A stretch of DNA of 64,000 nucleotides, taken from Bacteroidota bacterium. GTDB taxonomy: Bacteria; Bacteroidota; Bacteroidia; Flavobacteriales_E; Vicingaceae. The notes under the pieces are model-generated. The model was not told where the DNA came from, ran no database searches, and saw only the letters and a program-made list of their open reading frames with translations. The position numbers and the translations under genes are program-made. The stretch spans positions 310,001 through 374,000 of the forward strand of contig JABFGJ010000001.1 of NCBI GenBank assembly GCA_013112545.1, in the 5' to 3' direction. How positions within the stretch are numbered: position 1 is the first letter of the stretch; each line of letters opens with the position of its first letter. Below are positions 26,455 to 46,400 of this stretch, one piece after another.

Positions 26455-27252
26455 TTATTTAAACTGTACAGTTTTAGTTGAGTTGTCGAAACTTACATAA
26501 TATGTTCCTTTTTCAAAGCCTTTAATGTCTGCTGAACTACCATATCCTTTTTTTACAATAATTCCATAACGGTCATAAATCTCAAATAAGGTTTCGCCTC
26601 CTGAGAAATTTATAATATCCTTAAACTTTTCGCCTTCTAATACTATGGCTGGAGCAGAGGAATTATAATCTGCTGTTTTAGAATACCTCGGTTTTCCACT
26701 TACATCAACTTGCTTTACTCTAGCTTTGTTTTCTCCGCTGTGTGGGGTTATTTTGAAAGAATAGTTATGTGTACCTGGAACACCATTTCCCATTACTTCG
26801 CCTACTTTCACCCACTTATTCCATCTAAATTGCTCAACAATGTAATTCAAGGCTCCAGTTTCATTTGAAGTTGTCCATCTTAAAACACCGTTTTTATCAA
26901 ATGAAATACTTTCAGTTTTAAATGTACTTTTTGGTCTAAGCACTTCTGCGTTTAATACTTCTGGCTTACAATCATCTTTATGCTTAATGTTAATAATAAC
27001 TTTATCTCCAAGTTTTAAGTCGTGGTTTGCAAAATCTATTTCAAAAGCACTTTGGTTGACTTCATCAGGAGATAGTTTTCCATTAACAGTTACTTCAAAA
27101 ACACAAAAACCAACACCTGCGCCACCAAATGGATTTTTAACGAAAATGTTTTTACCCATATAGTTGCCTTCTAATACTATCGTTCCTGCAAAACTAAATG
27201 CTGAAATGAAAGAAAGTGTAAGTAGTGTAAAAAATGATTTTAGTTTCATCAT
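26455..27252 (-). CDS. secreted protein, possible T9SS type A-like tail
   Basis: A 265-aa exported protein with a signal peptide (MMKLKSFFTLLTLSF...SFA, about 22 residues). The N-terminal domain (about 23-110) has a FCVFEVTVNG strand and paired cysteines. The middle (about 120-195) looks like one fibronectin-like domain. The last 60 residues (ETLFEIYDRYGIIVKKGYG, then FEKGTYYVSFDN) resemble the short type A sorting domain of T9SS cargo. Function is unknown. It is 136 nt downstream of the cyclase gene that ends the nine-gene fibre operon, with no obvious hairpin between, so it might be partly co-transcribed. It has its own terminator. Confidence 0.68.
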   Translation of the reverse strand: MMKLKSFFTLLTLSFISAFSFAGTIVLEGNYMGKNIFVKNPFGGAGVGFCVFEVTVNGKLSPDEVNQSAFEIDFANHDLKLGDKVIINIKHKDDCKPEVLNAEVLRPKSTFKTESISFDKNGVLRWTTSNETGALNYIVEQFRWNKWVKVGEVMGNGVPGTHNYSFKITPHSGENKARVKQVDVSGKPRYSKTADYNSSAPAIVLEGEKFKDIINFSGGETLFEIYDRYGIIVKKGYGSSADIKGFEKGTYYVSFDNSTKTVQFK

Positions 27253-27388: not shown

Positions 27389-28936
27389 CTAATTTTTTAG
27401 CTCAAGTTTTTCTGCTTTCATCTTCAATTCTTTCAATCTTTCTTGTTTTACTGGCTCTCTTCTTTGCTTTGCAGATTTTGTAAAGTACTTATGCTGAGTC
27501 AAGAAGCCAATATTCATGTTTATCCATGTTTTTTCATCGGTTCCAATTTTTCCAAACTCGATTAATTCTTGCCTAAGTGTTTCTGCAATTGGATAAAAAT
27601 CTCCTCGTCCAAGGTAATCTAAATCAGAATCACACATAATTTCTTCCAAGTGATTCTTTGGGTTTTGGGGAATTTTTGTCGATTCTATTAATTCAATCAC
27701 CTGTTCTATTTGTGGTTCGGTATAACCAAAAGAAGGAAGCATCTCTTTAGCCAGTTTCGCTCCAATTGGTTCGTTACTTTCATAAGAATCAATAAAACCA
27801 GCATCATGATACAAAGCTGCGGTTTTTAATAAATAAAGCTCTTCCCCTTTAACTCCTTCCCAAATTGCTAATCTTTCAACAGCCTCGCAAACATCCATTG
27901 TGTGGTGAATCCCGTGATAATGCAGTCCATCAGGCAAATCACCAGCCAACCTTTTTACAATATATTTTTCAGCGTTTCTATAATTTATATTGCTGTATAA
28001 TTTAAGGTTGACATAATGCCAGAATGCTTCATTTGGAGTAACTCCGTCTTCATTTTCAGATAGCTCAGGTTTAATCGCATGTACAAAATACATGTCAATT
28101 TCTCCTTTGTTTTTAGCGTTTACCTTTCCACGATATTCTGTAATAAAAAACTCAGCTATTGCCTCATAAGTTGTTTCTGAAATGTTCACTTTTCCTACCT
28201 CTCCTGCAGCTTCCATGTGTGCAGCAACATTAACCGTATCACCCCAAATGTCGTAAGCAAACCTTTTAATACCTACTACTCCAGCAATCAAATCTCCTGA
28301 ATGAATTCCAATCCTAATTTCCCACGGAGTTTCACCCATTTCAATCTTTTTTTGCTTGATATCGCTCATTGCTCGTTGTATTTCAAGAGCTGCAAGGGTT
28401 GTGTCTATGGCATTACTTTTATTTCTAATTGGTACACCTCCTGCACACATGTAGGCATCACCAATCGTTTTTATCTTTTCTACATTGTATTTATTCACTA
28501 TTTCATCAAACTTGATAAAGTAGCTATCTAACTCAGCTACTAAATCTTGTGGAGAATAAGATTCTGCCACTTTAGTAAATCCTTTGAAGTCGGTAAACAT
28601 AACCGTCGCTTTTCGGTAGTGTCTCGCTTTAGCCTTTCCTTTGTTTTTCAATTCGTCGGCCATTTCTCTGGGAAGAATGTTTAACAGCAATTTTTCTGTT
28701 TTTTCTTTTTCTTCTTCCAAAAGCTTTTTTTGCCTTTCTACTTTTTCTTTTTGCTTTATAATTTCAATGGTTCGTTGTTTAACTTGAGATTCTAAAAGGT
28801 CTTTCTGTTTTTGAACTCGTCGAATTCTATCTCTATAAAAAAGGTAAACACCAATCAAAATAACTAATAGCAAAAACAAACTTGTCCAAAAACTAAATGA
28901 CATTGTAGTTGCCTCATGTAAATAAATAAACCCCAT
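27389..28936 (-). CDS. membrane class III cyclase fused to an HD domain
   Basis: A 515-aa signalling enzyme: one membrane helix (about 13-33), a long coiled coil ending in the cyclase-transducer-like LLLNILPREMADELK (about 83-97), a class III nucleotidyl cyclase domain (about 105-290), and an HD domain (about 330-470; HHTMDV, LYHD at 377-378, CDSDLDYLG). The metal-binding Asp116 and Asp160 and the adenine-selecting Lys156 and Asp229 point to cAMP rather than cGMP. However, the position of the transition-state Arg is His240 (NVAAHMEA). The HD half may degrade a nucleotide or act as a regulator. It is the last gene of the fibre operon, 1 nt after the PorE-like gene. Whether it is catalytically competent cannot be told by eye. 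Confidence 0.88.
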   Translation of the reverse strand: MGFIYLHEATTMSFSFWTSLFLLLVILIGVYLFYRDRIRRVQKQKDLLESQVKQRTIEIIKQKEKVERQKKLLEEEKEKTEKLLLNILPREMADELKNKGKAKARHYRKATVMFTDFKGFTKVAESYSPQDLVAELDSYFIKFDEIVNKYNVEKIKTIGDAYMCAGGVPIRNKSNAIDTTLAALEIQRAMSDIKQKKIEMGETPWEIRIGIHSGDLIAGVVGIKRFAYDIWGDTVNVAAHMEAAGEVGKVNISETTYEAIAEFFITEYRGKVNAKNKGEIDMYFVHAIKPELSENEDGVTPNEAFWHYVNLKLYSNINYRNAEKYIVKRLAGDLPDGLHYHGIHHTMDVCEAVERLAIWEGVKGEELYLLKTAALYHDAGFIDSYESNEPIGAKLAKEMLPSFGYTEPQIEQVIELIESTKIPQNPKNHLEEIMCDSDLDYLGRGDFYPIAETLRQELIEFGKIGTDEKTWINMNIGFLTQHKYFTKSAKQRREPVKQERLKELKMKAEKLELKN

Positions 28937-28937
28937 G

Positions 28938-31900
28938 TTAACGTAATGTTTTTAAAATCTTAAATTCTGTTCTACGATTTAAATAATGGTCGTCGTTATT
29001 ACATTCCTTAGATTCACAATCTACAATAGGATTTAACATGCCAGAATAATTACCTATAATCCTTTCTCTAGGAAAACCATTTCTAACCAAGTAGCGAATG
29101 ACTTGATTTGTTCGTTGTTTAGACAACCAAATGTTGTATTCTTTTGAACCCCTATTGTCTGTGTAGGAATGAACTTCAAGCATTTGGGTGGCATCTTTAT
29201 ATTCTGAAATTATTCTTTGCAAAATTGGTCTATCAACTGGTCTTACCTCAGTGCTATCAAAACGATAATGAATAGCCACATCTTTCAAATCAGTTCGATC
29301 AATATCTAAGTCTAAAACGTAATGGTCTCTTGCTTCTGCTAATAAAATTTCGTTATTATCTATTGAAAGAGAAGAGTATTTAAATTGCCCGAAGCGATTT
29401 CTAATGGTTTTATCTATCACGCGATTATTTTTATCTAAAGTAACCAACTGGAATGGATCGTCTTCATCCTCTATCTTATAAATGTAATTAACATCCTTTT
29501 TTAATTTTTCGAAGGTGAAATTTCCTTTTTTATCCGTTTCGGTAACAGCCAATAATTCGCCTTCTTCATTATAAACAAACACTTTCATTTTCGATTTAAA
29601 ATCACCTGGCAATTTTTGGTAAACAAGTCCAGTAACATCTTGGGTTAAATCCACATCTTCTACTACTACATCCTCAATTGCCAAAGGTTCAAATTGTGCT
29701 ATTTGATAAGTTAGTTTTTTATAACTGAAAGAGCCATTCTTGTTTAAAGTCGCAAGTTCTAATATTTTATTATTTTCATCTAAAAAGGCCATATTCATGG
29801 TTTCACCCTCTTCTTTCAATTTAAAAGCATAATTTTTATCTGCATCTAATTTTTCAAAATTAAACCTTCCTCGAGAATCCGTTAATACTGAATCAACAAT
29901 AGTTCCTTCATTGTCTAGTGCATAAACTGTAATTCCTTTTTCAAAATCACCAGGTAGTTTTTTATACACTTGTCCTGCAATTTTAATAATTAACGGAACA
30001 ATATTTTCTTCTCGCTCTTGTATTAACTTATACTCATCAAAGGGTAGAGAATTAAATACATATTTACCATTTTTAAGTTGAGATATCAAATATAAAGGGT
30101 CGCCTTTAGAGTCTAAAGTATAAACTAAAGACTCATATAATATATCTCCTTCCAATTCTGGAAATTCGATGTAATAGGTATCGTCAAACTCTAATTTATT
30201 AAACTGAAATTCGCCTTTGTTGTTGGTGTAAACTGTACCTATTAGCTGATTAAGTGCATTATAAATATTAACTCTTAAAGCTTTTAATGGTAAGCCTTTG
30301 TGTTCAATTCTAGCAATCATGGCAGTGATGCCATTGTTTCTAGCTTCTATCGTTTTTAAACTGGCATCTAAGGTATTTGATATCGCATAAACCCCTTCTC
30401 CATCGGGACTTATCACTTCGTAAACCCTACCAAATTTATTTTCTAAAGCAAGGTTTAATCCTGGGTCAAGTTCTTTCAGTTGAATTAAGTAATCTTCGGT
30501 ATTGCCTAGTTTTTCAAAGTTAAAATATCCGAATTGGTCGGTAAAAGCAGAATCCACAACCAATCCCTCTTTGGTAGTTAAATAAACCATGACTTGCTTA
30601 GAAAAATCGCCAGGTAGCTTTTTATAAACACGGCCCAAGAATTGAAATCCATCAACAAAGCTGGTGTCTGCCTCTTCTTCTTCTTGTAAGGCCAAAAACT
30701 CTTCTGTAGGCAAAACTTGAAAAGTAAACTTGCCAGACTTTAATTGATTTAACAGGCGTAATTTATTACCCATTTTATCGGTTATAAAAAGCCTTCCATC
30801 GTTTTTAAACTTTTCATCTTGTTCTTCTATTCTAACAAAAAATTCTTCTTTATAGGGCAATTGTTTAAAATGGAATTGCCCTATGCTATCGGTATATTTT
30901 ATATAAACAATTGAATCTTTTTGGTTTAAAAGCAACACCTTTACGTTTTCTTTGGGTAGTCCTTTGTATTCATAAACACCGTGAATATCAACATAAAGCT
31001 TAGGTGCTTGTTTGGTAAAACGATATAAATCATCGGCTCCTTTTCCACCTTCGCGGTTAGAAGCGTAAAATCCAGTGCTGTCTGTCACAAAATAAATGCT
31101 AAAATCATCTCTGTTGGAGTTGATTGGGCTTTTCATGTTTTTTGGAGATTGCCATGTTTCATTGAAAACGGCATACATGATATCCAGGCCGCCATAACCA
31201 GCAAAACCATCCGATGAAAAATAGAGGGTGTTATTCCGATAATAGGGAAACACTTCATTTTTAGGGGTGTTGATATTTTTTCCTAAATTCTGTGGTTTAG
31301 ACCATTGGTTATTTTCCCAATTGCTACGATATAAATCAAATCCACCTTGTCCTCCAGGCATATCCGAAGCAAAATAGAGTGTTTTACCACTGTCTGCTAA
31401 ATGGCCTTGGCAGACAGAATATTCATCTGAATTAAAGGGGAATGGTTTAAAATTTTTCCACTTATCATTTTCATAGTCAGCCGTGTACATTTTCATGCGG
31501 TTTAAAAAATCTTTGCCCCGCATTTGATTGTCAATTCTAGTAATAATCAATTTGGTTTCTTGCTCATTGATAGACAATGGTCCATCGTGATATTCTGTGT
31601 TTAATAGTCCAGAAACCATTTTTATTTTCAGCTTTTCGTCAGACTTTATTTCGCTGCTATCAAACTCATACATCGAATAATAAGGGCTTCCATCCCAGGA
31701 AGAAGCTTCGGGTGAGTTTTGATTTATATCTCTATTTGATGTAAAGTAAACGAGGTTTTTAAAGAGCACCAAGCCATATTCCGACAAGGGAGAATTCAAA
31801 TCAGATTCTACTCCACTTTTAAATTCTTTTGGTTCTTTTTCCCAAGTATTAATTTCGTCAATCGATTGTAGCATAATGTTGCCAAGAAATTCATTTTCGG

Positions 31901-32282
31901 ATAATTCGGCGAATTTTAAAAATTGATTTTTGGCTGCGGCCAGTTTACCATTTGCTTTTAGTGCTTGTCCATAATACAAATAGTCTTCTGCTTGAACAGA
32001 ATCTGAGTTAACTGTTAACACATAATACAATTCGGCATTTTCATAATCCCTGATTTTTCGAAAAGAATTAGCGAGGTATTTTACTGGTAAATAAGCTTTA
32101 TCGTCAATTTTTCTAGCTTTTTTAAAAAAGTCTATGGCTTCTACAAAGTTTTGCATTTCGTATAATGCGATTCCTTTTTCTAATTTTTTATTTTGCCCAT
32201 TAGTGAAGCTAAGGAGGCAAGTTAAACTAAGCAGTATGCTAAACTTTAGAATATTTAAATATGAAGGAAATAGCTTTTTCAA
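28938..32282 (-). CDS. PorE-like OmpA-family protein with five internal repeats
   Basis: An 1114-aa envelope protein. In order: signal peptide (about 1-29), TPR repeats (about 33-140), a PD40/WD40-type beta-propeller (about 165-425), five carboxypeptidase-regulatory-like modules, and a C-terminal OmpA peptidoglycan-binding domain (about 995-1114; HYRFDSTEV, SYTDNRGSKEYNIWLSKQR, NRRTEFK). TPR-propeller-CRD-OmpA is the layout of T9SS component PorE, which has one CRD; here the modules begin near residues 435, 548, 658, 771 and 888. Three contain KLPGDF and all have a GxFxFxKL-type strand. The start codon is TTG at 32282, 6 nt after the PorP/SprF stop, because a TAA lies just upstream in frame. 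It may anchor the SprF-type complex to peptidoglycan. Confidence 0.86.
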   Translation of the reverse strand: MKKLFPSYLNILKFSILLSLTCLLSFTNGQNKKLEKGIALYEMQNFVEAIDFFKKARKIDDKAYLPVKYLANSFRKIRDYENAELYYVLTVNSDSVQAEDYLYYGQALKANGKLAAAKNQFLKFAELSENEFLGNIMLQSIDEINTWEKEPKEFKSGVESDLNSPLSEYGLVLFKNLVYFTSNRDINQNSPEASSWDGSPYYSMYEFDSSEIKSDEKLKIKMVSGLLNTEYHDGPLSINEQETKLIITRIDNQMRGKDFLNRMKMYTADYENDKWKNFKPFPFNSDEYSVCQGHLADSGKTLYFASDMPGGQGGFDLYRSNWENNQWSKPQNLGKNINTPKNEVFPYYRNNTLYFSSDGFAGYGGLDIMYAVFNETWQSPKNMKSPINSNRDDFSIYFVTDSTGFYASNREGGKGADDLYRFTKQAPKLYVDIHGVYEYKGLPKENVKVLLLNQKDSIVYIKYTDSIGQFHFKQLPYKEEFFVRIEEQDEKFKNDGRLFITDKMGNKLRLLNQLKSGKFTFQVLPTEEFLALQEEEEADTSFVDGFQFLGRVYKKLPGDFSKQVMVYLTTKEGLVVDSAFTDQFGYFNFEKLGNTEDYLIQLKELDPGLNLALENKFGRVYEVISPDGEGVYAISNTLDASLKTIEARNNGITAMIARIEHKGLPLKALRVNIYNALNQLIGTVYTNNKGEFQFNKLEFDDTYYIEFPELEGDILYESLVYTLDSKGDPLYLISQLKNGKYVFNSLPFDEYKLIQEREENIVPLIIKIAGQVYKKLPGDFEKGITVYALDNEGTIVDSVLTDSRGRFNFEKLDADKNYAFKLKEEGETMNMAFLDENNKILELATLNKNGSFSYKKLTYQIAQFEPLAIEDVVVEDVDLTQDVTGLVYQKLPGDFKSKMKVFVYNEEGELLAVTETDKKGNFTFEKLKKDVNYIYKIEDEDDPFQLVTLDKNNRVIDKTIRNRFGQFKYSSLSIDNNEILLAEARDHYVLDLDIDRTDLKDVAIHYRFDSTEVRPVDRPILQRIISEYKDATQMLEVHSYTDNRGSKEYNIWLSKQRTNQVIRYLVRNGFPRERIIGNYSGMLNPIVDCESKECNNDDHYLNRRTEFKILKTLR
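29520..30985 (-). repeat. five tandem ~113-codon modules in the PorE-like gene
   Basis: Modules begin at about codons 435, 548, 658, 771 and 888, a period of 110 to 117 codons. Each has a VYxKLPGDF- or GLP-type opening, a TDxxGxFxFEKL-type strand and most end in a linker with GKFTFQVLP- or GKYVFNSLP-like text. The repeats are diverged at DNA level and so are likely old. Confidence 0.75.
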
Positions 32283-32288
32283 ACGTTG

Positions 32289-33212
32289 TTAAAAATATCG
32301 AGGTGAAACGGATCTTGATTTAAATAAATTAAAGTCATATCCAATAAAAATTTCATGTGAGCCACCGTTTTCGCGACTCAATTGAGTTAAAGAAATATCG
32401 TAAGAATAACCAATACGCAAATACTTGTCAATGTTATATTCTATAATGGCTACACCGCCATAACCTCTTCTATAGGTTAATCCTAACCATAATTTATTGT
32501 TCAGCAATACACTTGCATTTAAATCTAAAAATGCTGGTTTGTTATTTGCTGTTTTTAACAACATGGAAGGTTTAAAAACAACATAACGATTAATTTTAAA
32601 TGCTCTTCCTGCAGTTATAATGGCTTGTGCTTCTTGTCTCGATGTGCTTTCGATGTTCACATTATCTGACTGTATGCCCAATTTCCCTTGGTTTAGATGA
32701 GTAAACTCTACGCCGATATAGTTCTGTTTGTCGTAGTAATACATTCCATAGTCAAACGAGGGAACCATATAGGTTTCAGTGCCATTGTTGACAAGGCCAT
32801 TGGTTTCCTTGTATTCGATATCATCCCAATTAAATTGATAGTTATAGATGCTGGCTCTTAATCCAAAAGCCAATCGACCTCTGGCTATTCTAATGCTGTA
32901 AGCATAGTCACCAGAAACAACTACAGTACTTTTGGGGCCGATAACATCTTTAACAGCTTGAAAACCAAAGCCCATTTTCTTATCTCTAGTAGGTGCATGA
33001 ATAGCGAAGGATTGAGTTTTTGGCGCGCCTTCAAAGCCAACCCATTGTGTTCGATGTACAGCAGCCGCACTCAGCATTCCTCTTGAGCCGGCATAAGCAG
33101 GGTTTATGCCTAAGGGATTAAAGAAGTATTGATTGAACTGAGGGTCTTGTTGTCCTTTTAAAACACAAGGTAAAACCAACACGATAATCAATATGTATTT
33201 TTTAAATTTCAT
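32289..33212 (-). CDS. PorP/SprF-family T9SS outer-membrane protein
   Basis: A 307-aa outer-membrane beta-barrel of the PorP/SprF family. The signal peptide ends about residue 20 (LKGQ). It is followed directly by the family signature QDPQFNQYFFNPLGINPAYAG and HRTQWVGFEGAPKTQSF, then alternating barrel strands, ending YDFNLF near the C-terminus. In Flavobacterium johnsoniae, SprF is needed to export SprB, and related PorP/SprF proteins serve other type B cargo. The gene right before it (1 nt gap) encodes a type B cargo, and a PorE-like gene follows 6 nt later. This is therefore a dedicated accessory set, not the core T9SS, whose genes are absent here. Confidence 0.94.
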   Translation of the reverse strand: MKFKKYILIIVLVLPCVLKGQQDPQFNQYFFNPLGINPAYAGSRGMLSAAAVHRTQWVGFEGAPKTQSFAIHAPTRDKKMGFGFQAVKDVIGPKSTVVVSGDYAYSIRIARGRLAFGLRASIYNYQFNWDDIEYKETNGLVNNGTETYMVPSFDYGMYYYDKQNYIGVEFTHLNQGKLGIQSDNVNIESTSRQEAQAIITAGRAFKINRYVVFKPSMLLKTANNKPAFLDLNASVLLNNKLWLGLTYRRGYGGVAIIEYNIDKYLRIGYSYDISLTQLSRENGGSHEIFIGYDFNLFKSRSVSPRYF

Positions 33213-34400: not shown

Positions 34401-36597
34401 TTATTTTCATTTTAAATACCCAAGTTCCACCTTCTCTTCTTTCAAAAGAAAGATCGTTTCCGTCTCTTATAATTCTCCATGTACCGTTTGTTGTTGGATC
34501 TCCAAAATAGAATGCATCTCCAGAGCCTGTTTCTATGTCTCCTGCAACATCAAGCTTTGAAGATATAGTTGAGTTCCCAATTCCAACGTTGCCTGATCCA
34601 TCGATTCTCATGCGTTCGGTGTAGGTTGGATTATAATCAACCGAAGTGTTTTCTGTTCTAAAGGCTAATCCATCTGCTGTACCTCCCACATCCATGTATG
34701 CCAAAGAACCAGTATGAGAGAGTTTTATGTGATCCCATTCAGCGGCATTATAAAAACCAATTCCAGCTTGGGCACGAATTTCGCCCAACACGTCTAATTT
34801 ATAAGAAGGGTCTGTTTTACCTATTCCAACATTGCCATCTGAATCTATTCTCATTCTTTCTGTGGTTGTACTTGCACCATCCGCAGTGGTGTGAAACTGA
34901 ATTCTACCAGGTAAATCTCCTGTTCCAGTAGCTGCATCCATTTCTATTGAAATTTTAGCTATTGCACCATAAGTAGTACCATCATGAGCAAAAGCGGTAA
35001 CCTGACCTACTATATCATTTTGAACAACTGCGGCTTCTGAACCCTCTGTACCTCTTGCTTTGGAAAAAGCTAGGCTTGCATTTTCCGACAAAGCACTTGC
35101 ATAGCTGTTGATTCTTGCAGCAACTTCTCCGGTTCCTGCTAGTGTTAATTTAGCTGAAGGGCTTTCTGTGCCAATGGCTACCTTACCAGATGAATCTATT
35201 AACATGTTTGGGGTGTTGAAGGTATTCTGAGTAAAAAATCGAATTTGATCTGAGTAATTATTATCATTGGTGCCATATAAGTTAATACCTGCGCCATTAT
35301 TTAAAGCTGTATCTGCTCTTATCACTAGAATATTTCTAGTTGCTAATGTTGAGTTATAAATTACTGACCTGCTTACTCCCTCAAGTGAAAGTGAACCCTT
35401 CACATGCAAGTCAGTTTCAGGAGAAGCAGTTCCGATACCGACCTTTCCTATTGTATAATTAATAGAAGACCCAGTTGTATTCCATGGACTTGCTTCTGCA
35501 TCTTCCCAAACTGTTTTTCCAGCGCCATTTGAGGTTAGCACTTGGCCATTTGTTCCTCTTAAGCCCGGGAAAGTATAACCCGAACCATCTTTGGCAGAGT
35601 CTAATGTAAGAATACCGTGGATTTTTAGACTATCGTCAGCAAAGTTTCCATAGATTAAAGGAGTGGTGGAACTAGAGTTTTCGATAAATAATTTGTTTGA
35701 TAAATTTGTTTGAGTTGCTGCTGACTGATAACCAATAAAAATATTAGAAGATCCGTAATTTATTAAACCTGACTGATGCCCGATTGCAACATTATTATTT
35801 CCCGATGTATCAGTAAAGATTGCCCCACCCCCAAGAGTAACATTTCTAGATCCTGTTTTATTGGTGTTTAAGGCTTCTTGCCCAATTGCAACATTTGAAC
35901 CTCCAGATGTATTAAAAAACATGGATTGTTGACCAACAGCTGTATTGCCACTTCCTGTCATATTACCAAACATGGCCTTATTCCCAACAGCAACATTAGA
36001 ACCAGCATAGGTACTTTGTCCCATAGCAACTGCACCAATTGCAACATTTGAACCTCCAATATTATTTCTATTCGCCTCAATACCTATCCCTACATTTGAT
36101 TCGTATATATGCGGTGTTGTATTATCTGCTGTTCCTGCATTATTTCCTATATAAACATGTTGGCTACTAAAATTGATTCTTCCAGGTGCTTGCATTCTAA
36201 AAAGTTCTGACCCTGCAATATCAAAACGAATGATATCATCATCTGTTCCTTCTTCTACTTGTATTTTAGTGTCGCCATCGGTATCAGAAATAAGACTGCT
36301 ACCATCTACTGCTGATTGTATTTTAATCCAAGAAGGGGCTGCTGGTGTGCCGGCATTAAAATAAAAGCCCGAGGTATTGTCTATTTGAAAAATCATTAAA
36401 CCAGTAGCTGGGCCAGCAATTGCATTTTTTTGAGTTTCAGTCATTCTTGGAATAAGCATCCCTTTTTGAGTAGAAACCACATCTATCATGGCGGAGCTGT
36501 CTGGTTCAGAACCATCCGTATTAATGGAAATACTTTGAGCATATGAACCAGCATATAACCCAAATAACAAAACCAATAAATTTAGTCCTTTTTTCAT
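34393..36597 (-). CDS. fibre protein D, YadA-head-like, no S74 domain
   Basis: A 734-aa exported protein. Signal peptide (about 1-20), then the N-terminal module shared with the next two fibre genes (about 21-125: [38 protein letters not shown]). After that come seven or so 22-residue YadA-head-like repeats (about 169-292: [29 protein letters not shown]) and four GNVGIG-type beta repeats ([30 protein letters not shown] and others). It ends with a short domain ([20 protein letters not shown]) and lacks the S74 chaperone of its two relatives. About 140 nt near 34620-34760 are close to 37325-37480 in the 1120-aa gene. It overlaps that gene by 4 nt (ATGA). Role inferred: fibre subunit. Confidence 0.8.
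34615..34765 (-). repeat. segment shared by fibre genes D and C (copy in D)
   Basis: This stretch encodes [37 protein letters not shown] and the flanking residues. It closely matches the segment at about 37325-37480 in the neighbouring fibre gene, with scattered, mostly third-position differences, indicating duplication of the two genes or gene conversion between them. Confidence 0.8.
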
Positions 36598-39500
36598 TTT
36601 ATCTTTTCTTTTAATTGCTTTAATTCTTCCATTAAAAAGTCAATTTGATATTGTTGTTTTTCATTGTTCTGGTTTTGTTGGTCTATTAGTAGTTGCTGTT
36701 CTTTGATGATTTTAAGCAGTTCTTGAATACCTCCGGTTAATAATGGAGTTAGTTTGCTGTAATCAACAACCATGGGTTTTTCTTCAACTGAAAGTGTTGA
36801 ATCTCCTGTTGCTGCTTGTGGAAAAACCAATTGTAACTCCTGAGCAATAAATCCAATTTCCTTAATACCAGGATTAGATATTCTTTCATATTCTCTAGGT
36901 TTCATTTTTGAAATTAAATCCAATGATGACGTGAAATCTCTTATTTCTGTTTTCAATCTTCTATCTGAGGTTGTATTGTAGCTCACTCCTCCAGACCCAT
37001 CACCAGTAACTGTTCCTCTTATTAAACCTGTTCCTCCTCTAAACTCTATAAAGTTATTAGTCGCTAAAGGAGTTGTTACACCTATTCTGATTGAAATTCC
37101 TCGAGCTGTAATACTCGAGTTTGAACTTTCTAAAGCGAGAATTCCCGTTTTAGTGCTTTGAACGATCATATCAAATGATGATGAGCCGCCGGAATTTAGT
37201 GATAGTGAAGTGCCATATATATGACCTGTAGTTAGTGCTGTACTTGTAACTGTACCATCAACGTCAAGCTCAGTAGATGGGTTAGATTTTCCAATCCCAA
37301 CATTTCCATTATTTAAAATTCGCATGTGTTCAGTATAGGTAGGGTTATAATCAACTGAAGTATTTTCTGTTCTAAAGGCTAATCCATCAGCTGTTCCTCC
37401 TACATCCATATAAGCTAATGAACCAGTATGCGAAAATTTAATGTGATCCCATTCTGCAAAATCATAGAATCCCATTCCACCTTCAGCGCGAATTATTCCT
37501 TGAACATCTAATTTATAATCTGGAGAAGAAGTTCCAATGCCTACATTGCCTGTACTTCCTTCAATAATTAGATGATCGACCATTGCAGAGCCAAAATTAT
37601 TGATTGTCTGAAATTTTAAATTAAAGTCGTCTGTAGTATTAGCCTTCTGTTCGGTAACAATTGCCGCCCTATTGATGGATCCGTGTCTAAATAGTAGTTG
37701 ACTACTATTGTTAAACCCACTTGTTTGGCTTTCTGACCAAATTGTTAGACCGATGGTTTCGTCTGAATTGCTACCAATTGTTAATTTAGAAACGGGGCTT
37801 GATGCTCCAATGGCTACATCCCCAGTAGCTTTTATTCGCATGGTTAAATTATTGCTTCCCGCAGTATCAACAGTATAAAAACTTAATCTGGTAGGTATTT
37901 TACCAGGAGTAGAAACTGCGCCATCAATATCTAATGTAAAGAAATCTCTTACGTATGAATTAGAAGGTCCATCACTTATAGAAGATTTAAATTTAACAAC
38001 ATTATCATTTAGCGCAGGTGCAGATCTTGATAATCTAGAGCCTCTTGATTTACTAAATGTTAATTCAGTTCCTGAGGTTGATCCAGAGCCATAACTATTG
38101 AATCCCATCTGAACTTGACCCGATTCACTTAAAAAGCCAACATCTAAATCAGTTGTAGAATTCCAAACGGAAAAGTTCTTAAATCCCCCATTGTGACCAA
38201 TGCTAACATCACCATCTGCATCTACATGAATTCCTTCACTATCTCCATCGCCTGAAAGGTAATTTCCATCCAGGTTTATGTTAGTTGTAGCTGTATGATT
38301 TCCAAGGTTATCGCCTGGAGCTATTCCCCACCCTACATTCCCATGGCCGTCGGTTTGAAGCACTTTTAAGCTATCTCCATCTTCAGCAGGAAAAGAATAT
38401 TTTCCATCTATTTCTAGCGTATCAACAATAGATCGACCTTGCACTTCAAATGCCGCCCTTGGATCAGCCATGTTAATTCCAACCCTACCGAGGGTGTCAA
38501 CCACAAGAGCGTCTGTTCCGCTATTGTCGCTATAGATATAAAACTTGCTATCGGTTCCCCAATTGATTAATTGGAATTCAGATTTTGCAGTTACAAAGTT
38601 GATGTAGGCATCGCTTCCCACATTTTCCGATTCGATTTGCATTGAACCATTACCTGTTTTATCTACTATATGTAGATCATATCCTGGTTCAGTAGTGCCA
38701 ATTCCTACACTTCCCCCTCCCTCTATAGTCATGCGAGGCGTGTTGTTTGTAAATAAGGTAATGTCTTCATTACTTTTCATCCCTATTAACATCGAATTAC
38801 TTGGTGTATTCGCAAACAGCTGATTGCTTGAGCCATGTAGGCCAATAAATCCCTCTATGTTGCCACCATCTTGAAAAAATCGGAGGTATGGATTATCATC
38901 GCTTCCGTTATCATCAGCATCCGCTTCTAAAATTAGCTGGGCATCTCCTGAATTGTTGGAAGAGATTTTTGTTGTTGCATTAAAGATTAAAGAATCAGAG
39001 GCAAAGTTTCCATAGATTAATGGAGTTGATGAATTGGAGTTTTCGATATATAATCGATCGCTAAATGTCGTTAGTGATGGTTGTGCACCAGCATTAGTTC
39101 CAATGAAAATATTATTACTGCCGTTTACAAACTCACCTGAAACTGCTCCTATTGCAACATTGTAATCCCCTGTTGTGTTATTATATAATGCCCCGTTTCC
39201 CATCACAGTATTGGCTGCACCTGAAATATTTTTTGTCATGGCATTGTAACCAATAGCCGTATTTTCATAACCGTCATCATTATCATTTAAGGATTGGCCA
39301 CCGACAGCAATGTTTAAAAACCCGTTGCCAGTTGCCTCCAATGCGCCATGACCAATTGCTGTGTTTTCGAAACTAGTAACATTTCTTAATGCATTGTTAC
39401 CAATAGCTAAATTGGTATTCGAAGAATTGTTTTGAAGTGCATTTAAGCCAATACCAATGTTATTTGCATCTGAAAAACTTGAGTTTTCTCCAGCTCCTTC

Positions 39501-39956
39501 ACCTAAAAACAAATTTCCTCCTGTATTCACCACTTCAAATCGACCGCTATCCATTCTAAAAAACTCAGTTCCAGCTTGGTCAAAGCGAATGATGTCATCA
39601 TCCGTTCCTTCTTCTACAAGTATTTTGGTGTCGTTGTCGGTGTCAGAAATTAGACTACTTCTATCTACTGCTGATTGTATTTTAATCCAAGAAGGCGCAG
39701 CTGGGGTTCCTGCATTAAAATAAAATCCAGTGAGATTGTCCGTTTGAAAAATCATTAAACCAGTTGCAGGCCCGGCTATTGCATTCCTTTGAGTTTCTGT
39801 CATCCTAGGAATTAGCAATCCCTTTCCAGTTGAAACCACATCCAACATAGCCGAGCTATCTGGTGCAGTACCATCTGCATTGATGGATACATTTTGGGCC
39901 AAGCTAGATAAACTAAAAGCCAACAGGCAAAGAAAGGGTAGTATTTTATTCTTCAT
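36594..39956 (-). CDS. fibre protein C with S74 self-cleaving chaperone
   Basis: A 1120-aa exported fibre protein. Signal peptide (about 1-20), the shared N-terminal module (about 21-125), YadA-head-like repeats (about 152-279: [30 protein letters not shown]), six GNVGIG-like repeats, and a C-terminal S74-type intramolecular chaperone (about 985-1120). The latter has [11 protein letters not shown] with candidate catalytic Ser997 and Lys1002, [16 protein letters not shown] and a terminal coiled coil. In phage tail spikes this domain trimerises the fibre and then cuts itself off before the Ser; that would release about 124 residues here. Unlike phage fibres it has a Sec signal. No T9SS tail is present, so the outer-membrane route is unclear. 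Confidence 0.85.
37325..37480 (-). repeat. segment shared by fibre genes D and C (copy in C)
   Basis: Partner of the 34615-34765 segment, in the same orientation about 2.7 kb upstream in the operon. Homologous recombination between the two would fuse genes C and D and swap an S74-bearing C-terminus for one without. Confidence 0.8.
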
Positions 39957-42900
39957 GCTCTTCTAACATTTTAGATTCTATTCGTTCTAATCGGCGAATT
40001 AACTGTTCATTGTCTAATTCTAATTTTTCAATAACTCTTTGTTGTTCTTGAATTGCCTTCGTTAATATTGGAGTTATAGCGCTATAGTCCACCATCATGG
40101 GATCTTCTTTTACATCACCATTTGGATCCCCTGCAACTACCTGAGGATATACTTCTTGTAATTCTTGCGCGATGAAGCCATCTTGCATTTTATCTGTAGA
40201 ATTTTTGAAATAGTATTTTCTTGGTCGCATTTTCATCACAATATCCAAGGCTCCTTCTAAGTCCTGAATATTCGTTTTTAACCTCTGATCGGAAGCATTG
40301 AAAAAATTAATTCCACCAGTACCATTGCCTCGAACCAGCCCCAAATCAGTCCCTGAACCATCTTCAAATGCAATAAATTTATTATCGTTGGTTAAATTGG
40401 CGGTTCTTCCGATAGCAATGATCATCCCGTCGGCATTTGATCCGGTGTTTTCATTTTCAATGCGAAATAAATAACCATTGCTTTTGTCTTCTACAATTTC
40501 AAGCAAATGTGTCGGACTTGTAGTCCCAATTCCAACATCACCACCATCTTCAAATACTGAATTAGTTCCAACATAAACATTACCTCCGTCTTTATTTATC
40601 CAAAACGATTTTGTGAATCCATTAAATCTAGACATAATTTCATTGTCATCGAATAAAATGTTATTTCCATTAGTTTCCCCAATAAGTAAAAACCCTCCAG
40701 AACCAACTTCAGCATCTGTTCCTCCGTCTATGTGCAAAGGAGTAATCGGATTGATTTCTCCAATACCGACATTTCCATTTTCCAAGATTGTCATATTTAC
40801 AATGCTATTGGTTGCAAACTGCATGGGGAAATTTAAATCAGTTGCCAATAGTAATGCATTGTCGAGTGAGTTGGTACTATTTGTCCCTGCAGAACCTTCA
40901 AAGCCTAGAAACCCTGTAACTAATCCCCCATCTTGAGAAAAAATGATTCTTGGGTTATCTTCTTCACCTGAATTATCGGTATCTGCTTCAATCAAAAAAT
41001 TTGCATCGCCTGTGCTACTAATATGAAGCAATTCGGTAGGTGTTGTACCAATTCCAACTTCTCCATCATCCATTATAGTCATCACATCAGTCAAACCAGT
41101 GCCAGCACTCCCATTGTTGGTTTGAAAAACCAATTTGCCAGTTTCACCAGATGTCGCAGCCATTCTTCCGATTACTCTTGCCATAGAATATTCAGTTCCA
41201 CTGCCTTCATTGTTATCGTGGTTTTTTAAGTCTAAAAACGCCACATCTACAGTTGTGTTTCCACTGCGTTTTCCAATAATTTCAATGCCCAAGTCATTGG
41301 TGGTGGTAAATTGCTCAAAACGAGCAACCACATCTCCATTAGAACCAGAACTCCCATCTTGTATAATATGTAAGGGATTAGCTGGATTCTGATTTCCGAT
41401 TCCTAGCCAACCTAAATTCGACAAGGTCATGGTTTCTGAGCCATTGGTTGTAAAACGAATGTGGTCATCATCGCTATTTTCTACCGTAATTTTAGTATCA
41501 CTATCATCATCTGTTATTTTTGTAGAATCTAGAACACTTGCCGGCAATTGATCATTTGAAACTTCTAAACTAGAAAACATCCCGTTTACCGTATTATATC
41601 CATAATCGCTTCCTTGTTTAAATGCAATAATGGAGAAGGTTTTATTTGCCGTGGCCCCAGCATCATTGGTAACATAAACGGTTACTCCATTTTGAGATAG
41701 AGCATTGTAGGCGGCAATGTGTCCACCTGTGCCACTTGCCCCAACACTTGCTATAATAGCAGGTATTTTATCAAAAACACCTGCATTAAATGTTATATCA
41801 AAAGTTCCAGCAGATGAACGATTAACAGAAGAAATCCAGTCCTCACTCTCACTTTCTATATTTCCACTTCCATCTATTCTTGCACTATAAATATTCGTCG
41901 ATAAGGTATCGCCTGATGCGTTTGACGCAGAAAGGCTAGCCCAAGCACTGCCATTATAATACATATAGGCTGTACTGTCTGTATTGTAAATAAATAATCC
42001 ACTTGCTGGTGAAGAAATACTATTCATGTTGCTGGTTGACATTCGAGGAGGCAAAAACCCTCTTGTCGTATCCAGTAATTCTAAAATAGCTGAATGTTCT
42101 GTTAAATTATTTGTTCCTAAACCAAGATAACCTGTTGAATCTAAAAACATTCGTCTGGGGTTTCCAAAATTGCTAGAACCTGTTTTAAAACTGATATCTA
42201 ATCCATTTAGATCTAAAGCTAAAGACTTATATCCGCTAGAAGATGAAAGTAAGCTTCGCCCATTGTTATTGGCTAGTAAAGCATAATTTATACCCGTAGG
42301 TAATGAACTTAATGAATGACTACTCGCAATGATTGATCCTTGCACATCAAGCTCTTTTCTTGGATTTGTTGTTCCTATCCCTACATTTCCATTTATTCCC
42401 TTAATGGTAATTACTGTAGCTGTATCATTTAAATACTTGTTAATAAAAAATTTGTTTTGTGTATCATCAGAAACTAGTTCAAACCCTACCGTTTTAGAGA
42501 AGTTTAATAGACGTATTCCTGATTTATACGCATTTCCCCCAGCAGTTTTTATGGATAAAAATTGGTCTTCAGTTTTGGAAAAATTTCCAATTTGTAAAGC
42601 ATCGGTTGGAGCTGAATTTCCTATTCCCATTTTTCCATCAGCATCAACCACCCAACGCACTCCACTTGATGCAGCTGATTTTCCACCAAATAAACCGATA
42701 GAACCAGAAGGTAGCAAACTTCCATTTGAACGATCTGAGAATATGGCATAATAAGAGGAATCGCTAGTATATAAAAGACCTACTTGACCAGTATCAGCTA
42801 CCATTCTTAAAAACAAATTTGACTGTTTCGCTTGATACAATGTAAACCTACCAAAAGAGTTGATTGTTGCTGCAGTATCTAATCGATTTGCATTACTAGG

Positions 42901-43458
42901 AGAGCCAACTGTAAAAAAAGTTCCTGTTCTTCCATGTATTTGAAGTGCATCACTATCTTGAAGAGAGTCCCATCCAGATTCACCTATAAATGTATTCCAT
43001 TGGTTTGTCGTTGAACGATAATCATCTCCAAAGACAATTCTTGACCCAGCTCCTAGAGAGCCTCTTCCATATAAATGTAAAAGTCCTTCGGGTGTATTCA
43101 ACCCTATACCAACATTGCCAGTATTAAAATATAAATTAGTGTCCTTCCTATTCCAGTTGGAAGAATCAGCATTGGTCGCAATTTTAATCCAATCTGGAGT
43201 TGAAGGAATTCCTTGATTGAAATAAAATCCAGAATCAGCATTTAATTGATAAATTAATAAACCAGTAGCAGGATTTGAAATGGCATTTCTTTGAATTAAT
43301 GTAAGCCTAGGAATTAATACTCCTTTAGTGGTATCAGAAACATCGAGTATAGCCGAAGCATCGGGCGAAGTTCCATTTTCATTTATGGAGATACTTTGCC
43401 CGATAAGGGTACCAAAGGAACCTAATAAAATAGCAAATATGAAAAGTTGTCGTTTCAT
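39946..43458 (-). CDS. fibre protein B with S74 self-cleaving chaperone
   Basis: An 1170-aa exported fibre protein. Signal peptide (about 1-20), the N-terminal module (about 21-105: GVLIPRLTLIQRNAISNPA), eight GNVGIG-type repeats (GNVGIGLNTPEGLLHLYG, GEVGIGTTPTELLHI, GDVGIGTTSPTHLLEIV and others), a second copy of the module (about 465-510: GFLPPRMSTSNMNSISSPA) and a beta-sandwich insert (about 530-620). The S74 domain (about 1040-1170) has NASDQRLKTNI with Ser1056 and Lys1061, [16 protein letters not shown] and a coiled-coil end. It has no clear YadA-type repeats. It starts 20 nt after the 2216-aa gene and overlaps the next by 11 nt. Trimeric assembly and self-cleavage are inferred from the S74 dyad. 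Confidence 0.85.
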   Translation of the reverse strand: MKRQLFIFAILLGSFGTLIGQSISINENGTSPDASAILDVSDTTKGVLIPRLTLIQRNAISNPATGLLIYQLNADSGFYFNQGIPSTPDWIKIATNADSSNWNRKDTNLYFNTGNVGIGLNTPEGLLHLYGRGSLGAGSRIVFGDDYRSTTNQWNTFIGESGWDSLQDSDALQIHGRTGTFFTVGSPSNANRLDTAATINSFGRFTLYQAKQSNLFLRMVADTGQVGLLYTSDSSYYAIFSDRSNGSLLPSGSIGLFGGKSAASSGVRWVVDADGKMGIGNSAPTDALQIGNFSKTEDQFLSIKTAGGNAYKSGIRLLNFSKTVGFELVSDDTQNKFFINKYLNDTATVITIKGINGNVGIGTTNPRKELDVQGSIIASSHSLSSLPTGINYALLANNNGRSLLSSSSGYKSLALDLNGLDISFKTGSSNFGNPRRMFLDSTGYLGLGTNNLTEHSAILELLDTTRGFLPPRMSTSNMNSISSPASGLFIYNTDSTAYMYYNGSAWASLSASNASGDTLSTNIYSARIDGSGNIESESEDWISSVNRSSAGTFDITFNAGVFDKIPAIIASVGASGTGGHIAAYNALSQNGVTVYVTNDAGATANKTFSIIAFKQGSDYGYNTVNGMFSSLEVSNDQLPASVLDSTKITDDDSDTKITVENSDDDHIRFTTNGSETMTLSNLGWLGIGNQNPANPLHIIQDGSSGSNGDVVARFEQFTTTNDLGIEIIGKRSGNTTVDVAFLDLKNHDNNEGSGTEYSMARVIGRMAATSGETGKLVFQTNNGSAGTGLTDVMTIMDDGEVGIGTTPTELLHISSTGDANFLIEADTDNSGEEDNPRIIFSQDGGLVTGFLGFEGSAGTNSTNSLDNALLLATDLNFPMQFATNSIVNMTILENGNVGIGEINPITPLHIDGGTDAEVGSGGFLLIGETNGNNILFDDNEIMSRFNGFTKSFWINKDGGNVYVGTNSVFEDGGDVGIGTTSPTHLLEIVEDKSNGYLFRIENENTGSNADGMIIAIGRTANLTNDNKFIAFEDGSGTDLGLVRGNGTGGINFFNASDQRLKTNIQDLEGALDIVMKMRPRKYYFKNSTDKMQDGFIAQELQEVYPQVVAGDPNGDVKEDPMMVDYSAITPILTKAIQEQQRVIEKLELDNEQLIRRLERIESKMLEEHEE

Positions 43459-43478: not shown

Positions 43479-46400
43479 TTATTTCAAATAATATACACAC
43501 CTAAACGCTTCTGTATTTGTAGGGTCGTCATTAGCAGTAGCCTCAGCACTTCCGTTTCCAACTTTTCTTACGGTGTTTGATGTTCCACCGTCAACCCATT
43601 CCCAATTATCAGTTGTTTTGTCAGCAGTTCCTGGAATGGTAGTTCCGCTATACCATTCGGCCCAAGTTGGTAATTTATATCCAGCTGTAGTACAAGTTGT
43701 TGCCGCAGCAAACCAAGTAGAAGCAGTTCTTTCTGTAGAATCTACACACATACTAGGGCCTGCTGCTAACATACCTGCAGGACAAGTTGCAGGAGCAATT
43801 ACATCCCATCTAGCTACACCATTTGCATCGGAAGTCAAGACTTTACCTTCTGCAGCATCTTTTGCCATTACAAAATTTGAATCTAAAACTAACTGATCAC
43901 GAATAAACACATTACCTGTATCTAAATAAGCTGACCAATTTTGGCTAATTCCACCTTTTGCTTTAGAATAGATACCATACGCTTCAGATGTTCCATTTAA
44001 GCCTGTAGCAGTTGCTCGAACACCAAAGGATTGCCCATCTTCAGATGAAGCATCGAATTTACCTCCATAGGCAATACCAGGAGGAGTTCCTGTTTGAGTG
44101 ACACTTGCTCTAACACCAACTGCATTAGGTGAAAACCCTCCACTTGAAACGGAGTTAACCGTTAAGTTTAACCCAACGTTTTCATTTGTTGCTCCAGAAA
44201 CCGTAGCAGATAAACCAGCATTATATCCAGATTGCCCTGAAACAACAGAATTAACCCCATAAGCAATACTAGTTGAAGCCGTATTGGTAAAGTATCCTGT
44301 ATAGTTGTCAGACGAGGTATGTACGTGTAGCCTACCATTTGGAGTTCCTATGCCCATTGCTATTCTTCCGCTATAGGAGTTCCCCATTAATTTCATTCGT
44401 GTAATACCATCGGTTTTAAATAGGATGCTATCGCCGTTTGTTAAATCTATTCTTTCATTGTTTGAAGCATCTTTTAGCACAGATAATGTATCTGCAGCTA
44501 TTAAATTACCGAGGTCCTCCCAAGAAGCAACTCCATTAGCATCGGAACTTAAAACTTTGCCACTTGCTTGATTGCCATCTACCATTTTTATGTTTCCAAC
44601 TACATGAAGTTTTTCGGAAGGATTATTTGTACCAATACCAACTTGTTGATTTTCATCAATAATCATGGCTAAGTTTAAATCCCCAAGAATTCCTGTTTCA
44701 AATCCTAACATGCCTTCAGATTCTCCATCATTGGTCATCCAACTTAATCGACCAAATTCAAAATTTGATCCCCCATCAGAACCATGGAAAGAAAGATGAC
44801 CACCGGTTCTATCTTTAAAATCGCCAGAGAGCGCGGCATTGAATTGAGCAACTTCATATGTGGTGTCTAACAATCCAGCTGAATTTACTTCAGTAGTTAA
44901 ATCAAAATGGCCATTTTGATCTATGACTAGTCGATCAGTGCCATTGGTTTTGAAAATAATATCGTCTCCAGTATTAATATCAATACTTGTGTTTCTATCT
45001 GCATCTGCTATGATATCTAAAGTATCCGAAGAAGTTAGAGATGAAATATCCACAAAACTCAATTGACCAGAACCGTCTGTTTTTAGGATTTGGTTGGCTG
45101 TTCCGTCAGTATTTGGGAAAGTCAATGAATCTCCTCCTGGTCCAGTTGATAAAGTCAATTGACCATTTAATATTGCATCGCCAGATTTGTAAACAATAAG
45201 GGCATCGCTTTCGCTACCATTAGCTGTTCCATTACCTAAAACAAATAATCTATCTAAAGCATTAAAAGAGGTAGTACTATTAGGACTTACTACTGTATTA
45301 TAACTACCAGCTACAAATTCTCCATAAGAATCGGCATTCGTACTATCTCCAAATGCTACTGATCCATCTCCTGATGCATTATTATTTCTACCTGCTACAA
45401 AAGAGCCAAAGCCACTACTAAAGTTATCAATACCAAATACAGCCGAATTATCACCATTGGCTCTATTTCCATTTCCTGCTACAAAAGAAGAATGACCCTG
45501 AGCAAAACTTAAAAAGCCAAAGGCTGCTCCATAATCTCCACTAGCATACCCTCTACTAGCGGCGAATCCATATGTCCCAGAAGCAATACTTCCAAAACCA
45601 AATGCAGTAGAATAAGAACCTGATGCCGTTGTACTGCGACCTCCTGCAAATGAACTAAACCCACTAGCTTTTGTGTTTTCTCCAAACGCCGTTGAAGCTA
45701 TTCCTATATTTGCATCATTCCATTCGCTTCCTTGTGCATACCCTGCCCTCAAAGCTCCTTTTGATTTATCAAAAAAGAATCTATTGTCGTGGTTTATATT
45801 CCCATCATCCGCTAGTTGAGGTGAGCCAAATACAAAATCATCAGCATAATTTCCTGGACTTGTTCTAATAAGGTTTGCTGTGGAATCATTGAATATTGGA
45901 GTTAACTTATTTAATATTGGAGTTAAGTCAATTGTATTTCCACCTGTTCCTGAAATGGTTAATTCATCATTTGATGTGTTTAATGAAAGTGTCTGAATTT
46001 CATTGGTTGCACTTGAATCGTTTAATACTATACTTCCTCCATCTTCCAAATAAATTTTTCCTTTCCCCCCACTAATCGTCAATGCTTGGTCATCTGTTCC
46101 TGTATTTGGGTTTGTCCATGTAATTGTACCATCAGCATTGGCTTGCATAATTTGACCCGGTGTTCCATTTGTATTTGGAAAGGTTATTGGATTAGCTCCA
46201 TCTGATAATGTTAATTTACCGTTTAATGTAGTGTTCCCATTTTTAAGCATGACTAAGGCATTGCTTCTAGTACTGTTATTAGTCCCATTTCCAATAACAA
46301 ACAGTCGATTTGTTGCAACAAAAGAGCTCGCGTTAAAAACTGTTGCGGTGTCATTGAACTGCCCAATTACTACTTCACTTAACGACTGAGCAAAATTACT

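Follow-up and report, generated by a model that had tools for sequence, protein, structure and literature searches.

In one branch of the order studied here (named relatives: Vicingaceae, Flavobacteriales), which belongs to the marine flavobacteria, a conserved membrane-bound class III cyclase fused to an HD domain, predicted to synthesise and probably also to degrade cyclic nucleotides, has lost its extracellular sensor at the same locus. In this branch, the transition-state Arg of the cyclase domain has given way in most members to His, Ala or Thr; the metal-binding Asp residues, the adenine-selecting Lys and Asp, the ribose-orienting Asn and the phosphate-binding Lys275 have stayed fixed. 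A Gln of the HD domain, residue 475, was replaced by Asn on the stem branch of the clade, the same branch as the sensor loss. The sensor loss and the freeing of the catalytic Arg coincide with a change that became fixed in the HD domain, and close relatives keep each of the ancestral states. A few purified proteins would allow a direct test of whether nucleotide binding on its own is enough to maintain a cyclase fold.

Domain architecture and catalytic residues

The protein is encoded in a window of 64,000 nucleotides, which is the whole stretch of DNA that was analysed (Table 1). A class III cyclase fused to an HD domain had been proposed in the first-pass annotation, and the matches to Pfam PF00211 and PF01966 confirmed it. 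PF01966 matches residues 343-438 with 21.8 bits in the whole protein and 23.7 bits in the domain alone, the cut-off being 22 bits. The top fold match of the cyclase domain is a bacterial adenylyl cyclase, 5o5l/5o5k (5o5l E 2.2e-17). The domain has the fold and profile of class III cyclases, both metal Asp residues, the adenine-selecting Lys and Asp, and the ribose Asn. The transition-state Arg of class III cyclases (Arg1029 of AC2) is missing, and His240 is found instead. Judged by its sequence, the domain is a class III homologue by descent with a putative cyclase activity.

The replacement of the catalytic Arg by His240, noted in the same annotation, is borne out by the DNA. The codons at 28214-28231 translate to NVAAHM, and in a phmmer alignment H240 falls on the Arg of the NIASRM motif of adenylyl cyclase 9 (second cyclase domain), i.e., at the position of AC2 Arg1029. 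The other residues that it had listed (metal Asp116 and Asp160, Lys156 and Asp229, and the HD pair 377-378) are present, correctly numbered and all invariant among orthologs. Indeed, D116, K156, D160, R208, D229, D233 and N236 of the cyclase domain and H341, H345, D348, H377, D378, D436, D438 and D440 of the HD domain do not vary among 42 orthologs. Lys275, at the position of the phosphate-binding Lys1065 of AC2, is also invariant. The profile match and the invariant H345, H377, D378 and D438 place the C-terminal domain in the HD superfamily.

Table 1. Features of the cyclase-HD gene and its upstream neighbours in the window
Feature	Position	Strand	Evidence
Short-form TM-coiled-coil-cyclase-HD protein, 515 aa	27389..28936	-	ORF and Pfam; relatives in 46/46 genomes searched in the order
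Predicted single transmembrane segment, ~residues 17-34	28835..28888	-	Hydrophobic run in sequence
Long helix/coiled-coil linker, ~residues 35-103	28628..28834	-	AlphaFold2 model: helix 5-87 and helix 90-99
Class III cyclase domain, residues 104-286	28079..28627	-	PF00211 E 7.6e-50
Asp116, metal-binding	28589..28591	-	Invariant, 44/44 cyclase rows of order alignment
Lys156, adenine-selecting	28469..28471	-	Invariant in order alignment
Asp160, metal-binding	28457..28459	-	Invariant in order alignment
Asp229, adenine-selecting	28250..28252	-	Invariant in order alignment
Asn236, ribose-orienting transition-state Asn	28229..28231	-	Invariant in order alignment
His240 codon (CAC), transition-state Arg position	28217..28219	-	phmmer alignment, order alignment, codons
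HD domain, residues 301-515, class I PDE-like fold	27392..28036	-	Model pLDDT 93.5; VIA-align Z ~17
His377-Asp378, HD metal motif	27803..27808	-	Invariant in 42/42 fused orthologs, 40/40 HD relatives
Asn475 codon	27512..27514	-	All relatives outside the short clade have Gln
OmpA/PorE-like outer-membrane protein, directly upstream of cyclase	28938..32282	-	Neighbour in short and many long forms
PorP/SprF type IX secretion protein, next upstream	32289..33212	-	PF11751 E 1.8e-67; synteny

Loss of the sensor at the locus

Relatives of the protein occur in all 46 genomes examined from the order, and 42 comparable fused orthologs were obtained, i.e., 29 long and 13 short forms, the window protein included. 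Where complete, the long forms measure about 1270-1320 aa and run from a Reg_prop/Y_Y_Y sensor through the TM segment to the cyclase and HD domains; the Reg_prop repeats and Y_Y_Y before the TM segment were seen by Pfam in two of them. Their equivalent TM segment follows the Y_Y_Y domain. In contrast, the ORF in the window begins at the TM segment, its open frame being 520 aa long where the sister group has about 1267 aa, and the extracellular sensor is absent. The open frames of the short forms span 510-534 aa.

Orthology between the window protein and the long receptor forms is indicated by 55-82% identity, conserved neighbours and the tree. The tree, which was built without column 240, places all 13 short forms in one fully supported group, and three Arg-bearing long forms are their sister. 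Short and sister long forms have common neighbours as far as the loci reach, namely the OmpA/PorE-like and PorP/SprF genes upstream and, downstream, the genes for a 265-aa protein and for an epimerase-like one of 133 aa. Therefore, the sensor was lost in place. Within the window, the OmpA/PorE-like gene ends in TAA, and a single base separates this stop from the ATG of the cyclase gene. A sensor split off as its own gene was also considered. It was rejected on size, since none of the three other Y_Y_Y ORFs of the genome (980-1334 aa) comes near the length of the lost sensor.

State of the catalytic Arg site among relatives

Site 240 is Arg in 29/29 long forms. In the 13 short forms it is His in six, Arg in four, Ala in two and Thr in one. 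The codons differ as well: His is written CAC in three genomes and CAT in three, Ala GCC or GCG, Thr ACC, and Arg CGT, CGC, CGG or AGA. Sequencing noise or a lone mutation is an unlikely source of His240, judging from the codons, because separate genomes of the clade carry His (by different codons), Ala or Thr. Parsimony gives five state changes in the clade, and the tree at least four between Arg and non-Arg, numbers that are uncertain as the branching within the clade is partly unresolved. The codons (CAT to CGT/CGC) suggest that Arg may have been regained at least once. The long forms have 128 invariant sites; 121 of them stay unchanged in the short clade, where site 240 changes most often.

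Outside the clade, Arg was found in 49/49 aligned cyclase domains of a Bacteroidia-wide sample that favours high-scoring domains. A search of the genome collection covered Flavobacteriales, Vicingaceae and more distant relatives; among the readable motifs, the only ones that lack Arg come from the short clade. A dedicated catalytic role of His was rejected because the clade shows four different residues at the site (His, Ala, Thr or Arg); the site is freed and not re-used. Compensation by another basic residue was also rejected, as the alignment of the 13 short forms shows no Arg or Lys gained clade-wide. Asn276 (28109-28111, minus strand), which adjoins the phosphate-binding Lys275, is invariant in the long forms and is His in 6/13 and Asp in 1/13 short forms. 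Its state is not linked to that of site 240.

Constraint on the cyclase domain

The pairwise dN ratio (0.98 vs 0.76) hinted at a faster change of the cyclase domain in the short clade, i.e., at its decay. This signal vanishes on the tree, where the ratio of cyclase to HD rates in the short clade compared with a long clade is 1.02 (95% 0.73-1.49). For the closest short pair, dN/dS is about 0.016 in the cyclase domain (0.0235/1.47) and 0.006 in the HD domain, whereas saturation affects the majority of pairwise dS values. This pair carries Arg, so that the estimate speaks for the clade and not, taken by itself, for an Arg-less lineage. Because of the rate ratio and the low dN/dS, the cyclase domain is not regarded as decaying. 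Moreover, the short form is an intact single gene across seven genera, and no internal stop occurs in the 13 sequences, many of which come from metagenome assemblies.

The HD domain and the change at residue 475

The model of the HD domain is confident (pLDDT 93.5). Foldseek gave bacterial HD hydrolases and PDE5 as best matches with weak E-values (best 0.002). In VIA-align, which only re-ranks Foldseek candidates, the top rows are all class I PDEs (PDE10, PDE7, RhoPDE and PDE9), with Z ~17, an rmsd of 2.6-3.8 and about 200 aligned residues. The model thus has the class I PDE fold, and the H...H, HD and D metal positions are shared with these enzymes. The domain differs from them in being much shorter, in having Asn at the likely position of their conserved Gln, and in lacking the third metal-pocket His of HDxxHPG, residues 377-381 reading HDAGF. 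PF00233 has no match in the protein and none in its genome.

Residue 475 is Gln in 29/29 long forms and in 34/34 other HD relatives, including separate HD genes adjoining cyclase genes, and Asn in 13/13 short forms. Class I PDEs read the purine with such a Gln (PMC5617230), and residue 475 is likely its equivalent, as far as fold and alignment indicate. At a low threshold, hhalign places residue 475 on the Gln of KSQVGF and D438 on the Asp of CADLS in PDE4D (a sequence identical to PDB 5wh5) with a score that is not significant, and the C-terminal HD profile did not rise above shuffles against PDE4D (468/3000). The short clade has also lost D472, which does not vary among the long forms. Both D472 and Q475 lie in the W-x-x-x-Q motif of the HD domain.

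Cyclases in the genomes and the cyclase-HD pair

A profile search of the window's genome (3.27 Mb in 24 contigs, listed as 100% complete) returned a single PF00211 match and a single HD domain of this family; a class I adenylate cyclase was not found. The Arg loss therefore hits the only known cyclase of the genome. Complementation by a second cyclase subunit was ruled out, as the genome holds no other PF00211 domain. The other Arg-less genomes mostly have one PF00211 match each, and PF01295, the class I cyclase profile, found none in 7 Arg-less genomes.

In other Bacteroidota (loci L172-L182, L184, L206 and L208), cyclase and HD (~190-215 aa) are separate neighbouring genes and form a conserved cyclase/HD gene pair. 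Several of these loci have a second cyclase gene upstream. As the separate genes lie side by side, this arrangement suggests that the two domains work together.

Possible function of the short forms

The ancestor was presumably a membrane receptor in which a periplasmic Reg_prop propeller with Y_Y_Y acted through one TM helix and a signalling helix that would drive the cyclase. The latter is presumed to have been a class III homodimer with the PDE-like HD domain on the same chain. Loss of the sensor at the locus in one branch left the short TM-coiled-coil-cyclase-HD protein, with Gln475 turning to Asn on the same stem branch and the transition-state Arg changing repeatedly to His, Ala or Thr afterwards. 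Fast cyclisation would then no longer be selected, while Mg-ATP binding and domain assembly would be preserved. The Mg-ATP-bound cyclase domain could govern, at the membrane, either the activity of the HD domain or its binding to partners; such control is inferred because the domains stay fused or neighbouring across Bacteroidota. The putative shift of selection, from fast cyclisation to Mg-ATP binding and assembly after the sensor loss, has about an even chance of being correct. It fits the retention, in several lineages, of all binding residues but not of Arg at an unchanged rate, a pattern that would be expected if nucleotide binding or the dimer state were selected over turnover. A sensor that binds without turnover, which the first-pass annotation had offered as one option, is hence the favoured reading; His itself has no special role, given the variable site. 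The broader proposal is more tentative and somewhat less probable than that shift: the clade may have turned a receptor cyclase with a fused PDE-like HD domain into a membrane-bound ATP-binding regulator, forming a natural series of pseudo-cyclases. Arg is still present in 4/13 short forms, which goes against the favoured reading. Together with its possible regain, this is compatible with some remaining benefit of Arg.

The main rival reading is that the short forms are slow constitutive cyclases. After the sensor loss, a low, unregulated basal output would have been favoured by selection. The Arg loss would throttle the cyclase and Q475N would tune the matching HD phosphodiesterase, with cAMP still being made and broken down at a slow pace. 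This Arg was named critical for the phosphoryl-transfer step in a mammalian cyclase (PMC10553838), and any cAMP from Arg-less forms should therefore be formed slowly. Mutants of Asn1025 in the mammalian cyclase nevertheless retain part of their kcat, which drops 30-100-fold and not to zero (PMC10553838), so turnover may survive the loss of a single residue of this kind. The short forms retain every other catalytic residue, Asn236 and Lys275 among them, the constraint on the domain is unchanged, and the codons leave room for a regained Arg. However, the switching between Ala, Thr, His and Arg at site 240 looks indifferent to rate. The CRP-like (PF00027) proteins of the window's genome also have no recognisable cAMP-type phosphate-binding cassette, a weak counterargument because most proteins of the long-form genomes read alike, few of them having such a cassette. 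Slow cAMP turnover is considered less likely than the favoured reading, though clearly more probable than the other alternatives.

Two other readings are much less probable. Both domains could be drifting towards loss after the sensor deletion, which would make the protein an early-stage remnant; the losses of the sensor, the Arg and the HD Gln do fall in one clade. Such drift is improbable in view of the intact gene in seven genera, the stop-free frames of all 13 short forms, the 121/128 unchanged family-invariant sites and the rate ratio of 1.02. Equally improbable is a change of substrate to a different nucleotide, or of reaction to a different cyclic or phosphorylated product, for which the Arg site and Gln475 would have been remodelled. 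A key position did change in each domain in the same clade, and D472 (lost) and Q475 (now Asn) share one HD motif. Yet the adenine-selecting Lys156 and Asp229 are invariant, and with a new substrate one would expect a single new residue to be fixed at site 240, where the state varies.

Comparison with known systems

Class III adenylyl cyclases (PF00211; mycobacterial Rv1625c/Cya, 5o5k; mammalian C1/C2) have in common with the window protein the fold, the metal Asp residues, the adenine Lys/Asp, the ribose Asn, the phosphate Lys, and the TM segment with its signalling helix. The window protein differs from them by the clade-variable residue (here His) in place of Arg, by its C-terminal HD domain and by the absence of a sensor. 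The long-form Flavobacteriales orthologs have the same locus (OmpA/PorE-like, PorP/SprF) and the same domain order after the TM segment, with 55-72% identity. They differ in about 750 or more additional N-terminal sensor residues and in keeping Arg240 and Gln475.

In the DUF2652 cyclase-like proteins of Bacteroidetes, the same Arg is naturally Q, H, Y or C and the metal Asp residues are kept (PMC4886424). DUF2652 is a distinct family, predicted to be cytosolic and of GC-type specificity (Glu-Lys), and it has no HD domain (PMC4886424). As in the window protein, CAPE of basal plants carries a class III cyclase and a PDE on one chain (PMC5159850). The likeness is one of architecture, since CAPE has its PDE, a eukaryotic class I enzyme, at the N terminus, and both of its activities have been shown by assay (PMC5159850).

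The literature search found no paper on Y_Y_Y-cyclase fusions and none describing a bacterial class III pseudo-cyclase that evolved within one orthologous gene. Pseudo-enzymes are well known for kinases and for GGDEF/EAL proteins. If the proposed reading were true, the Arg-bearing and Arg-less members would let the stepwise loss of second-messenger synthesis be followed. A PF00211 annotation is no proof of cAMP synthesis in these bacteria.

Other genes of the locus

The 265-aa protein downstream of the cyclase gene (26455-27252, minus strand) has no Pfam or NCBIfam match and starts with a hydrophobic, signal-like stretch. Its gene holds this downstream place in the majority of short forms and likewise in the sister long forms. 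A 2216-aa ORF without a Pfam match (43479-50129, minus strand) belongs to the same gene run as the PorP/SprF and OmpA-like genes. Two adjacent large proteins of 1120 and 1170 aa (36594-43458, minus strand), which end in Peptidase_S74 endosialidase chaperone domains, lie within this minus-strand run as well.
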